Part shown: piece after piece, positions 4,031 to 57,796 of the stretch
Layout: each line of letters opens with the position of its first letter
Numbering within the stretch: position 1 is the first letter of the stretch
Origin: Anaeromyxobacter diazotrophicus
Lineage (GTDB): Bacteria > Myxococcota > Myxococcia > Myxococcales > Anaeromyxobacteraceae
DNA: 64,000 nt
NCBI RefSeq assembly: GCF_013340205.1
Contig: NZ_BJTG01000006.1
Coordinates: 124,001-188,000, forward strand
Direction of reading: 5' to 3'
The notes under the pieces: model-generated
Databases searched by the model: none
The model's input: the letters and a program-made list of their open reading frames with translations, nothing else
Told to the model about the DNA's origin: nothing
Position numbers and translations under genes: made by a program

Positions 4031-6835
4031 CTACACGCAGCGCCAGTACGCGGTCGCGACCAGCGTCCGCTTCTCCTTCGGCTCGGCGCGCCTGCGCAGC
4101 TCCGTCACCGCCCGGTCGCGCTCGCCGTAGCGGAGCGCCTCGGTGGCGCGCAGGTCGTCGAGCCGGCGGCGGTACTCGCGCTCGGCGCGCTCGAGGAGCG
4201 CCCGCCGATCCCGCTGCGGCAGGTCCACCTTGTCGTGCAGCGCGGAGCGCGCCTTCGCCCACGCCTCGCGCGCCTCCTCGACGTGGCGCCGCGGGGCGGC
4301 GAGGACGTCCTCGACCGACCGGTCCCAGCGCTCGCGCTGCTCGTCGTAGCTCGCGCCGGCGCGCTCGGCGAACTCGGCCAGGAGCCGCGAGGAGAGCGCC
4401 GCCAGCGCCTCCTCCTGGGCGGTGCCCATGGAGATGGCCCCGCCGCGCGGGCCGCCCTTCGCCTCGCGCGCCGGGAGCTGGGCGAAGAGCTCGCTCGCCT
4501 CGGCGGGCAGGGCGCGGTACCGGTCGCCGTCCGCCCACAGGATGACGTGCGCCAGCTTGTCCTCGGAGGCGAGCGCGTCGAAGCCGAACTTGTAGGCGAA
4601 CCACCAGCCCTCGCAGCCCGCCAGCTCCTGAAGCTGCGGCGGGAGCGAGCGCGCGTCGAGCTCGACCAGCGACACCGCCTCCTGCGGCCGCGTCTTGACC
4701 GCCTCCGCGGCGGCCTTGGCGAGCCGCGCGCGGCGCGCCTTCGACCGCGCCTCGCCCGGCGGCGGCTCGGGGACGGGGAGGGGGGCCTCGCCCTCCTCGA
4801 AGACGCTGCGCACCAGCGCCTCCTCGTCCGCCTCGCGCCGCGCGACCGCCTCGCGCGCCGCCTTCTCCGCGATGCGGAGCTTGCCCCGGACCTCGCCGTC
4901 GAACTTCTCGAAGAGCAGCGCCCGCGCGGCCGCGAGGCGCGCCTCGATGCGCTCGTCGAGGTCCTTGCGGAGCGCGTTGAACGCGACGTCGATCTCCTCG
5001 CCCGAGCGGCACGACTGGTAGATGTCGAGGACGCGCGCCTCGAAGTCGATGCCGCTCCCCAGCGCGCCCAGGATCTCGTCGGACGATCCGAACACGCCGT
5101 CGAAGAGCGCCAGCTTCTGCGAGAGCAGGTCGTAGAGGCGCGCGTCGGCGGCGTTCTGCCGGTTGAGGAAGTTGAGGACCAGGACGTCGCGCTGCTGGCC
5201 GTAGCGGTGGCAGCGCCCGATGCGCTGCTCGACGCGCTGCGGGTTCCAGGGCAGGTCGAAGTTCACGACCAGGTTGCAGAACTGGAGGTTCAGTCCCTCC
5301 GCCCCCGCCTCGGTCATGAGCAGGATCTGGGTCTTGTGCCGGAACTCCTCCACCAGCGCCTGCCGCTTGTCGGGGCCGCCGGCGTCGCCGGAGAGGCTGG
5401 TGGTGGTGTAGCCGCGCGCCTCGAGGATCTTCTTCAGATAGTCCTGCGTGCGGCGGAACTCGGTGAAGACCACCGCCTTCTGCGGCCAGCCGCAGGCGCG
5501 CGCCACGGTGAAGGTCCGGTCGAGGCCGCGCACCAGCGCGTCGCCCTTCGCGTTCACCTGGATGGAGGCCGCCAGCTTGGCGCAGGCGCGCAGCTCGGCC
5601 AGCTCGTCGCGCATCTTGGAGACCGCGGCGGCGCCCTTCGGCCGCCCGTCGTCGCGCCCGCTCCCGCCGAGCTCCTCCGCCTCCTCCTCGAACCCGGAGA
5701 GATCGAGGAAGGCGTCGGCCTGCGCCGCGCACTCCGCCCCGGCCAGCTTGCCCTCGAGCGAGTCGGCCAGCTTCCCCAGCGTGTGCGCGAGGGCGAAGGT
5801 CGAGCTGGCGAGGATCTTCCGGTAGACGAGGACGAGCAGGGCGCGGCGCGACTGCGGGATGGCGACCGCGTCCTCGCGGCGCAGGTACTCCGAGACGCGG
5901 TCGTACAGCTCCTGCTCCTCGGGCGTCGGCGCGAAGTCCTCCACCAGCGAGCGCCGGGCGGTGAACTTCACGTACTCCTTCACCTGCCGGCGCAGGGTGC
6001 GGATGACCACCTGCCCGAGCCGCTCCTTGAGGTCGGCCGCCTTGTCCTCGGTGAGCTCGCCCGAGGCGAACTGCATCCGGAAGGCGTCCTCGGTGCCGAG
6101 CAGCGCGTCGTCGATGAAGGCGGTGAGCCCGAGCAGCTCCATCACGTCGTTCTGGAGCGGGGTGGCGGTGAGGAGGAGCTTCGGGCACTTCCGCAGGCCC
6201 TTGCGGAGCGCCTGGCCGGTCTTGTGGTCGCGGCGGTAGGCGTTGCGCAGCCGGTGCGCCTCGTCGATGACCGCGAGGTCCCAGGGCACCCGCGCCACCT
6301 CGTCCGCGCGCAGCGCCGCGAACGGGTGCGAGGCGATCACGATCCCGCCGGTGTCGAACGGGTTGAGCTTCAGCCCGTGCCTCTCCTGCGCGCGCGCGGT
6401 GTTGCCGTCCACCACCTCGGAGTCGAGGCCGAACTTGGAGCTGAGCTCGTCGCGCCACTGGTTCCGGAGCGACGCGGGGACGAGGATGAGGATGCGCCCG
6501 CGCCCCTCGGCGGCGAGCTGGGCGAGCACCAGGCCCGCCTCCACCGTCTTGCCGAGGCCGACCTCGTCGGCGAGGACGCAGCCGCCCGTGGCCATGGACG
6601 AGAGGGCGAAGGCCGCCGCCTCGATCTGGTGCGGGTTCAGGTCCACCGCCGACTGCGCCAGCGCCGGCGCCAGGCGCGTGGCGCCCTGGCCGCTGCGCGC
6701 GGTGAGGGCCTCGGCCGCGATGCGCTGGTGGAAGCGGGTGAGCGACGCCGCCTTGACCCTCGGCGCGTCCTGCTCCCCCACGGCCGTGCGCTCGCGCACG
6801 GCGACCCCGGTCCCCACGACGCCCATCCCCACCAC
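4031..6835 (-). CDS. SNF2/RapA-type DEAH helicase
   Basis: 934 residues. Superfamily 2 motifs are intact: motif I 'DEVGLGKT' (90-97), 'LVPASLRNQW' (Ia), motif II 'DEAH' (191-194), motif III 'TATPLQN' (223-229), then the helicase C domain with 'VVFTEFRRTQDYL', 'TEAGAEGLNLQFC' (V) and 'QRIGRCHRYGQ' (537-547, VI). The C-terminal ~350 residues are charged and coiled-coil prone, as in HepA/RapA-like and phage-defence (DrmD-like) helicases. Likely an ATP-dependent DNA or nucleoprotein translocase. Neighbours are housekeeping genes and no nuclease or methyltransferase partner is adjacent. A GGCGGAGG site precedes the chosen ATG; a start 9 nt downstream is also possible. Confidence 0.8.
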   Translation of the reverse strand: MVGMGVVGTGVAVRERTAVGEQDAPRVKAASLTRFHQRIAAEALTARSGQGATRLAPALAQSAVDLNPHQIEAAAFALSSMATGGCVLADEVGLGKTVEAGLVLAQLAAEGRGRILILVPASLRNQWRDELSSKFGLDSEVVDGNTARAQERHGLKLNPFDTGGIVIASHPFAALRADEVARVPWDLAVIDEAHRLRNAYRRDHKTGQALRKGLRKCPKLLLTATPLQNDVMELLGLTAFIDDALLGTEDAFRMQFASGELTEDKAADLKERLGQVVIRTLRRQVKEYVKFTARRSLVEDFAPTPEEQELYDRVSEYLRREDAVAIPQSRRALLVLVYRKILASSTFALAHTLGKLADSLEGKLAGAECAAQADAFLDLSGFEEEAEELGGSGRDDGRPKGAAAVSKMRDELAELRACAKLAASIQVNAKGDALVRGLDRTFTVARACGWPQKAVVFTEFRRTQDYLKKILEARGYTTTSLSGDAGGPDKRQALVEEFRHKTQILLMTEAGAEGLNLQFCNLVVNFDLPWNPQRVEQRIGRCHRYGQQRDVLVLNFLNRQNAADARLYDLLSQKLALFDGVFGSSDEILGALGSGIDFEARVLDIYQSCRSGEEIDVAFNALRKDLDERIEARLAAARALLFEKFDGEVRGKLRIAEKAAREAVARREADEEALVRSVFEEGEAPLPVPEPPPGEARSKARRARLAKAAAEAVKTRPQEAVSLVELDARSLPPQLQELAGCEGWWFAYKFGFDALASEDKLAHVILWADGDRYRALPAEASELFAQLPAREAKGGPRGGAISMGTAQEEALAALSSRLLAEFAERAGASYDEQRERWDRSVEDVLAAPRRHVEEAREAWAKARSALHDKVDLPQRDRRALLERAEREYRRRLDDLRATEALRYGERDRAVTELRRRAEPKEKRTLVATAYWRCV

Positions 6836-44533: not shown

Positions 44534-44579
44534 CCCAACTGCCCTCGCCCGGCATCGCGGGGACAGGAGTCACCCCGCC

Positions 44580-44821
44580 GCCCCGCGCCCGCGCGCGCGT
44601 CGGCGCCCGTGCTCCGCGCCGCGCCGGAGGTCCCAGCGGCCGGAACGCGCACCGCGGAGCTCGTGACGCGGCTGCGGAATCTTGCACCGCGGCGCCTGCG
44701 CGCCGCGGTGCTTCGGTCAGTCCTCGCCGCGGGCACGGCCCACCTGGCGCGTTCCGGCGAACCCGGCGCCCGTGGCGGCGCTCCGCAATGGCGCCTCGTG
44801 CGCGCGCGGGCTCGGGGCGGC
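44580..44821 (+). repeat. Dispersed intergenic repeat, copy A
   Basis: About 242 nt, estimated by eye at 85-90% identity to 57471-57711, same orientation. Long identical blocks include the one around 44598-44625 and CTTCGGTCAGTCCTCGCCGC. The centre holds a perfect 12-bp hairpin (44684-44695 with 44700-44711, loop CTGC). Confidence 0.85.
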
Positions 44822-48029: not shown

Positions 48030-48749
48030 TCAGTGACACCCGAAGCAGCTGCTCCTCCACCGGGGAGCCACCTCGACCGTTCCGTTGCGGTGCAGCGCAG
48101 CGCACGGGCCGAAGGTGCCGCCGGGCCCGCAATTCGTCGCCTGGCTGAGCGTCAGCACGCCGCCCGAGCTGGTCACGTCGGGATGGCAGAACGAGCACTC
48201 GTTCATCGCCGCGTCGCCGCCGTGCGTGCCGCTGTGCCAGGTCTTGGTGCGCGCGTCCGGCGGATTGTCATGGCAGGAGACGCAGCCCCCCGCGACCGCC
48301 GAGTACCAGGGGGGCGTCGTCACCGGCGTACCGCCGAAGCTCGCTCTCTCGAGCGTGGCCTCGCTGTCCACTCCGCACGCATAGTACGTGAAAGTGCCCG
48401 CCGGGACCATGTGGCACGCGACGTTGGAGCAGGTCTGGGAAGCGATGTCGTAGCTCGGACGGGGCAGGCCGCTGGCGGTGGCCACGGGCGCGAACGAGAT
48501 GAGCTTGACGCCCACCGGGCCGCACTCTCCCACGGTGCAGTGACAATCGTTGCACTGCGCCCCCGCGGAGTTCTTGTGCAGCTGGTGCGGGTCGATCGGG
48601 GTGAGCGCCCCCGAGCGCCGCGAGGTTGGAGGGGAGCTCGCCGCCGCACCGTTCTCCGGTGTCGAACCGCCACATCCCGATGCGGCCGACAGGACCAGGG
48701 TCGCAAGCAACCAGGCTGCGGCGCCCTCGCGCAACTTCGCTGTCGCCAT
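48030..48749 (-). CDS. Multiheme c-type cytochrome lipoprotein (CxxxxCH/CxxCH family)
   Basis: 239 residues. Lipoprotein signal 'LLATLVLSAASGCGGS'. Heme sites: 'CNDCH', 'CSNVACH' (the CxxxxCH variant), 'CVSCH', 'CSFCH' and 'CFGCH', the last His being the final residue. The alternation of CxxxxCH and CxxCH is the pattern of Geobacter/Anaeromyxobacter outer-surface cytochromes used in extracellular or metal respiration. Expected in the outer-membrane face or periplasm with up to five hemes. A run of ten G sits 6 nt before the ATG; an upstream TTG at 48818 would read through that run. Confidence 0.82.
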   Translation of the reverse strand: MATAKLREGAAAWLLATLVLSAASGCGGSTPENGAAASSPPTSRRSGALTPIDPHQLHKNSAGAQCNDCHCTVGECGPVGVKLISFAPVATASGLPRPSYDIASQTCSNVACHMVPAGTFTYYACGVDSEATLERASFGGTPVTTPPWYSAVAGGCVSCHDNPPDARTKTWHSGTHGGDAAMNECSFCHPDVTSSGGVLTLSQATNCGPGGTFGPCAALHRNGTVEVAPRWRSSCFGCH

Positions 48750-48755
48750 GATGGT

Positions 48756-48765
48756 CCCCCCCCCC
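48756..48765 (-). repeat. Ten-G homopolymer before cytochrome start
   Basis: Coding-strand run of 10 G ending 6 nt upstream of the ATG, where a Shine-Dalgarno would sit. Such runs are prone to slippage. Confidence 0.8.
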
Positions 48766-48974
48766 GACTGCCACGGGCGGCGTCGGAAGGCTGACACCCC
48801 GAGTGCGCGTCCCTGCAACGCGCATACCCGTGCTGACCGTGGCTCCTCGGCGAGGATTTCCGAGACAATACAAAGCCCTGGCGTTTATCCCAGGGTGAAT
48901 ACCGCGCGCGCGACAGGGCGAGAAGACGCTACGCTGGGTGAAGCCGCGCAGGGCTCAGCCGCCGCGACGCCCGT

Positions 48975-57329: not shown

Positions 57330-57796
57330 CCTCGGGGCCCGCGAGCGCTGCTCCCCTCGGCCCGCATCGCGGGAGGGAGTCCGGCGAGACCGCATCTCCC
57401 CTCGCATCGCGGGGAGAGGGGCTCACGGCGACGCCGACTTCACGCCAGGCGCGTGGCGGGGAGCCCCTGCCGCCCCTCGCCCGCGCGCGCGTCGGCGCCC
57501 GTGCTCCGCGCCGCGCCAAGGCTCCCTCGGCCGGAACGCGCAACGAGGTGCTCGCGACGCGGCTGCGGAATCTTGCGCCGCGCCGCTGCGCGCCGCGGCG
57601 CTTCGGTCAGTCCTCGCCGCGGGCGAGGTCCCCTGGGCGCGTTCCGGCGAACCTGGCGCCTGTGGCGGCGCTGCGCAATGGCGCCTCGTGCGCGCGCGGA
57701 CTCGGGGCGGCGCGAGAGCGGCCGGAGCTCGCTCTCGGATCCGCCGGGCGGAGAGGGCGACGGGGCTCGCCCGGGCACCGCACCAACAGTGATGGA
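57330..57796. other. 467-nt spacer between DEAD helicase and M23 peptidase
   Basis: No gene. Two GCATCGCGGG-containing hairpin-like segments (57364-57420; stem CTCCCC/GGGGAG around 57395-57412) are followed by repeat copy B (57471-57711). Since both flanking genes point into it, the region must hold terminators for both. Confidence 0.6.
57471..57711 (+). repeat. Dispersed intergenic repeat, copy B
   Basis: About 241 nt, direct repeat of 44580-44821. The central hairpin is kept as GCGCCGCG (57575-57582) / CGCGGCGC (57594-57601) although one base is deleted and one stem pair has changed from A-T to G-C relative to copy A. Confidence 0.85.

Follow-up and report, generated by a model that had tools for sequence, protein, structure and literature searches.

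What kind of sequence occupies the gene-free spacers behind two plus-strand genes, nrdJ and a helicase gene, in the window analysed here, a stretch of 64,000 nucleotides from Anaeromyxobacter diazotrophicus? The initial annotation had offered a non-autonomous mobile element, a REP/BIME-like family and a structured 3'-UTR or small RNA as candidates. Our best reading is that the repeat family is new and that its general sort is known, REPIN/ERIC-like in behaviour. With a probability of roughly two in three (0.68), we regard its members as non-autonomous mobile elements of ~245-280 bp that fold into hairpins and occur in one bacterial family (the Anaeromyxobacter lineage).

Copies, anatomy and genomic location

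BLAST aligns the copy at 44577-44821 (W1, 245 bp) with that at 57469-57711 (W2, 243 bp) in the same orientation and with 90% identity (E 6.9e-89), which confirms, with refined ends, the ~240-nt match initially made by eye. The spacers that hold W1 and W2 measure 449 and 467 nt when genes are called with a codon-usage caller trained on the window, in agreement with the ~460 nt first given, and the two copies begin 44 and 140 nt, respectively, past the stop codons of their plus-strand upstream genes. The expectation of many copies genome-wide is also borne out, because BLAST searches of the genome holding the window (G000; 4.83 Mb in 17 contigs) reveal 15 full copies of 241-247 bp rather than these two alone, together with one 126-bp half copy (C2:494160-494285) and several end fragments (C6:74683-74732, C8:72306-72364 and C2:617976-618009). 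Pairwise identity among the copies averages 82% and no pair exceeds 93%, so that the amplification is not recent. When the 15 copies are aligned, near-invariant blocks alternate with variable segments and the ends are conserved. The element is non-coding, as had been proposed, since indels among the copies break the frame, no coding frame is found, and none of the copies overlaps a gene supported by codon usage. We also observed that the strong partial copies in G000 (n=4, one being a tandem copy) are all 5'-truncated with the 3' end kept, matching query positions 139-262, 205-262, 213-262 and 229-262.

Every full copy is a single long imperfect palindrome that matches its own reverse complement at ~68% across the whole length. 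Reading from the outside in, the outer stem of 22 nt (GCCGCCCCGCGCCCGCGCGCGCG and its partner) leads to an internal loop of 2 nt, then to GGCGCC and TGC separated by a conserved CG/AT mismatch, to a TCC/TCC mismatch that is likewise conserved, and to GCGCCGC. Next come a variable spacer, the invariant inner stem GCCGGAACGCGC, a second variable spacer, and an asymmetric, conserved core with the layout TGCGGAAYCTTGC, hairpin, GCTTCGRKCAGTCCTCG. On the plus strand of W1, the outer stem is formed by GCCGCCCCGCGCCCGCGCGCGC at 44577-44598, which is 95% complementary to the 3' arm at 44800-44821, and the inner stem by GCCGGAACGCGC at 44639-44650, flanked by variable spacers on either side and paired with GCGCGTTCCGGC at 44747-44758. 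The W1 core (44667-44732) consists of CTGCGGAATCTTGC, a terminal hairpin at 44684-44711, and GCTTCGGTCAGTCCTCG, and is the part most conserved across genera. In W2, also read on the plus strand, the outer arms at 57469-57490 and 57690-57711 are 86% complementary, and the conserved core with its terminal hairpin lies at 57558-57622. The predicted fold of W1 has an energy of -182.9 kcal/mol, with z-scores of -5.8 on the plus strand and -7.2 on the minus strand.

Comparison of the flanks of the G000 copies shows that 13 of the 15 have CCC, frequently as ACCCC, no more than 7 nt 5' of the outer stem (background ~11%), and that there is no comparable motif on the 3' flank. In the window this 5' foot is ACCCC at 44572-44576, abutting the W1 hairpin, and GCCCCT at 57463-57468 beside W2, both on the plus strand. 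A separate short intergenic module, CTCCCCTCGCATCGCGGGGAGAGGGGCTCACGGCGACGC, is present to the left of W2 (57396-57434, plus strand) and outside the element proper. Similar sequence recurs in the left flanks of the copies at C8:54.9k, C7:192.9k and C15:42.3k, so that the module is another short repeat of intergenic DNA (CTCCCCTCGC..GGGGAGAGGGGCTCACGGCGACGCC) placed next to some copies. Another gene-free spacer of ~440 nt, at 48534-48974 between two minus-strand genes, is unlike the element, and a gene start may be miscalled there.

As for location, nine of the 15 copies lie in convergent spacers, six in tandem spacers (five sense, one antisense) and none in a divergent one, the convergent partner being an S23 gene or its remnant in three cases. 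With the spacer of W2 set aside, convergent spacers in the window amount to only ~250 bp in total over 11, compared to ~1.5 kb for divergent spacers, and the avoidance of promoters by the copies is therefore real. Copies behind genes or between convergent genes might survive because promoters are spared there, while those arriving in promoters would be lost. A gene on the same strand ends 44-245 nt upstream of 14 of the 15 copies, which is also what would be expected of a structured RNA with a host function, such as the 3' end of the upstream mRNA (where it would block 3'-exonucleases, be a site of processing or stop transcription) or a small RNA, the copies of which were spread by recombination and kept for their function. 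The sense orientation of five of the six tandem copies in G000 points the same way, although this bias is not significant, either in G000 or over four genera (7/9). Moreover, no T run follows the hairpin, and the upstream genes are unrelated to one another.

Structural constraint and distribution of the family

A search of relatives at the DNA level yielded diverged copies in two further genera of the same family, represented by G010 (three copies) and G003 (two copies). A covariance model built on the element core was run against two sets, 145 order genomes and 195 phylum genomes. Matches are found in four of the 145 and four of the 195 genomes, all in one family, and the carriers are G000 (16 matches), G010 (3), G003 (3) and G007 (2). 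These four represent four different genera, and each has its own subfamily. In G007, one copy forms a complete hairpin of ~240 nt, whereas truncation has removed part of the 3' side of the other; both were recovered by the covariance model only, the DNA search having missed them. The model finds no element in other species of the four carrier genera, nor elsewhere in the order or phylum genomes. The three G010 copies lie within a larger shared unit of ~640 bp (L082 4174-4817, L083 5441-6083 and L084 5665-6308), one outer end of which recurs, inverted, beside the L084 copy (5590-5653).

Several other candidate matches were set aside. Apart from the real matches in G010 and G003, most weak BLAST matches in genomes of the family and order (28-60 nt) look like GC-rich chance similarity, and a BLAST match in G007 (C258) was excluded from the count because it falls in apparent coding sequence. 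Fifteen pattern-scan matches in unrelated phyla were treated as chance, neither a core hairpin nor flanking arms being visible by eye. Searches of plasmid collections, phage collections and viral contigs gave no match. No published description of the family was found in a literature search that covered part of the literature, so that the lineage, for which none was found described, gains a repeat family under structural constraint.

Base pairing in the hairpin is under constraint. Across the four genera, 91.5% of cells are paired as against 80.6% in shuffled alignments, 28 of 63 pairs carry double (compensatory) changes as against 15, and covariation is 0.292 as against 0.113, none of these values being matched in 500 shuffles; the pairing signal is lost when the partner is shifted by 1-3 columns. 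Stem sequences differ between subfamilies with pairing retained, and four diverged, co-varying subfamilies make the family recognisable by covariance model. Within G000, in silico exchange of 5' and 3' arms between copies carries an average penalty of 4-9 kcal/mol, and the true arm pairings are not equalled in 5000 permutations (p 0.0002 within subtypes). Selection on the fold and hairpin-templated correction could each account for this signal within one genome; the former is the simpler reading because the signal also holds across genera. Strong conservation of the pairing and of the internal-loop sequence would suit a host RNA as well, as would a purely structural constraint. In addition, no model in Rfam 15 matches the element, and its distribution is patchy, with copies absent from other species of the genus and from the same genes in relatives. 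Taking these observations together, we consider a host-functional RNA unlikely.

Probable mobility and resemblance to known repeat families

The reading as a mobile element draws on comparison of the two window loci with their counterparts elsewhere. In G001, another species of the same genus, both loci are syntenic and the element is absent: nrdJ is separated from the next gene by ~1 nt, compared to 449 nt in G000, and the spacer between the helicase and peptidase genes is ~13 nt long, that in G003 being ~100 nt and also element-free. Boundaries at these absent sites are not clean, and no clear insertion footprint is seen, because neighbouring spacer sequence is missing too. Target duplications, which the initial annotation had suggested looking for, were not found at the G000 copies (17 matched bases, compared to 19.8 expected in shuffles). 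The evidence for mobility consists of dispersal together with patchy, subfamily-specific amplification, and the mechanism is inferred. The element was probably spread by an enzyme that acts in trans and recognises the folded single strand, whether DNA or RNA, and the core and internal loops may mark one strand, by analogy with what has been proposed for RAYTs acting on REPINs.

Candidates for such an enzyme were sought in G000. No insertion sequence bearing the ends of the element was found in this genome, all strong end matches being copies or lone end fragments. A single weak homologue of RAYT-like Y1 transposases is present (C5:427824-428045; L042 1315-2298), which falls below the Pfam cut-off and keeps the HxH motif. 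No significant element-like sequence was found around this gene or near the RAYTs of relatives, and 20 of the family's 24 genomes contain RAYT-like genes irrespective of whether the element is there. A link to RAYTs was accordingly rejected. An integron attC site was weighed on anatomy only, and no cassette arrays were seen. A more novel but improbable reading is that movement depends on recognition of the asymmetric folded core by some enzyme other than a RAYT, a reverse transcriptase or a classical insertion-sequence transposase, perhaps with the S23 four-helix-bundle protein as an RNA- or ssDNA-binding helper in some lineages. The coexistence of carriers and non-carriers within the same genera means that a comparison of gene content could reveal the mobilising enzyme.

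Typical REPINs are ~100 bp long, occur in hundreds of copies and have a GTAG foot, from which the present element differs in its length (~245-280 bp), its copy number (~15), its additional asymmetric core, its CCC foot and the lack of any cognate RAYT found here. In behaviour the element resembles REPINs: these are REP doublets that form hairpins in Pseudomonas, E. coli and Nostoc, with conserved inverted arms, a less conserved spacer, compensatory changes and an extragenic location (PMC3116915). The element likewise has folding inverted arms with compensatory changes that maintain pairing, variable spacers, a palindromic, non-coding sequence, a mostly extragenic, multi-copy distribution and a proposed movement in trans; a cognate RAYT flanked by copies of the repeat, as expected for a REPIN, was not found, and membership of the REPINs fails on this point.

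ERIC sequences are imperfect palindromes with no known transposase and a TA target duplication. Also called IRUs, they are described as enterobacterial 127-bp intergenic repeat units, short and MITE-like, in many intergenic regions (PMC2759123). The present element is also a non-coding imperfect palindrome in intergenic regions, but it belongs to other taxa, is about twice as long and has no TA target duplication, a distinction drawn from descriptions of the two repeats. Similarly, it shares with MITEs its short length, dispersal, non-autonomous nature and terminal inverted repeats (PMC10969869), yet is palindromic throughout rather than at its ends only, and it fails as a MITE because neither a target-site duplication nor a parent insertion sequence with the same ends was found. 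The initial proposal is partly supported: the data favour a dispersed, mobile-like hairpin repeat with REPIN/ERIC-like properties, a structured 3'-UTR fits less well, and the conditions named as refuting the proposal do not hold, the copies being many, their ends conserved and no frame coding. The element's palindrome, structural constraint, relatives in other genera and S23 neighbours all emerged on follow-up.

Association with S23 genes

Two G000 copies, at C2:617.7k and C8:125.6k, adjoin a minus-strand gene of the PF05635 family (S23, 23S rRNA IVP), and S23 remnants are seen beside the copies at C1:30k, C11:114k and C8:54.9k; the S23-linked copies share flanks and have GAGGTC-type arrays on their outer sides. 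These observations would fit an arrangement in which the hairpin is the terminal piece of an S23 element, with a unit composed of array, palindrome, S23 gene, hairpin and array, and in which isolated copies are debris. Against this, no PF05635 match was detected in the carriers G010 and G003, which have the palindrome, no palindrome was found near the S23 genes of other genera, the S23 unit at C5:411k in G000 has none either, and most full G000 copies bear no clear S23 trace. S23 is therefore a frequent neighbour in G000 rather than the owner of the hairpin, since G010 and G003 carry the palindrome without it, and we consider the S23-piece explanation improbable. A further comparison is with the 23S rRNA intervening sequence and its S23p gene, as in the Coxiella IVS (PMC4990558): both form hairpins and some G000 copies adjoin an S23-family gene, but S23 genes are missing from the relatives of other genera, and the two copies in the window are found between protein-coding genes rather than within 23S rRNA.

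Spread via an RNA intermediate has reportedly been suggested for repeats in Nannocystis, and a retron/msDNA-like or other reverse-transcribed repeat would agree with the long hairpin and the uniform 5' truncation of the strong G000 end fragments, but it is very improbable given that G000 has no match to the reverse transcriptase family PF00078 (RVT_1), that one of the two copies in G007 has lost the opposite end, and that there are only four such fragments, one of them a tandem copy.

The mobility of S23/IVS elements is poorly understood, and the proximity of the hairpin element to S23 genes offers a way into it. In G000, the S23/IVP four-helix-bundle genes at L088 (C2:618062-618358), L089 (C8:125287-125583) and L087 (C5:411202-411498) are embedded in composite units with a GAGGTC array on either side, and a near-perfect hairpin (CATTTCCGCCTCC...GGAGGCGGAAATG) lies at the start of the gene. 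The S23 genes of other genera form convergent, inverted pairs with ~55-bp hairpins and GAGGTC-type arrays on their flanks and several copies per genome, as seen at L106, L115 and L124 in G009, L112 and L121 in G020, and L117 and L125 in G002. These pairs look like members of a mobile S23 element family located outside rRNA.
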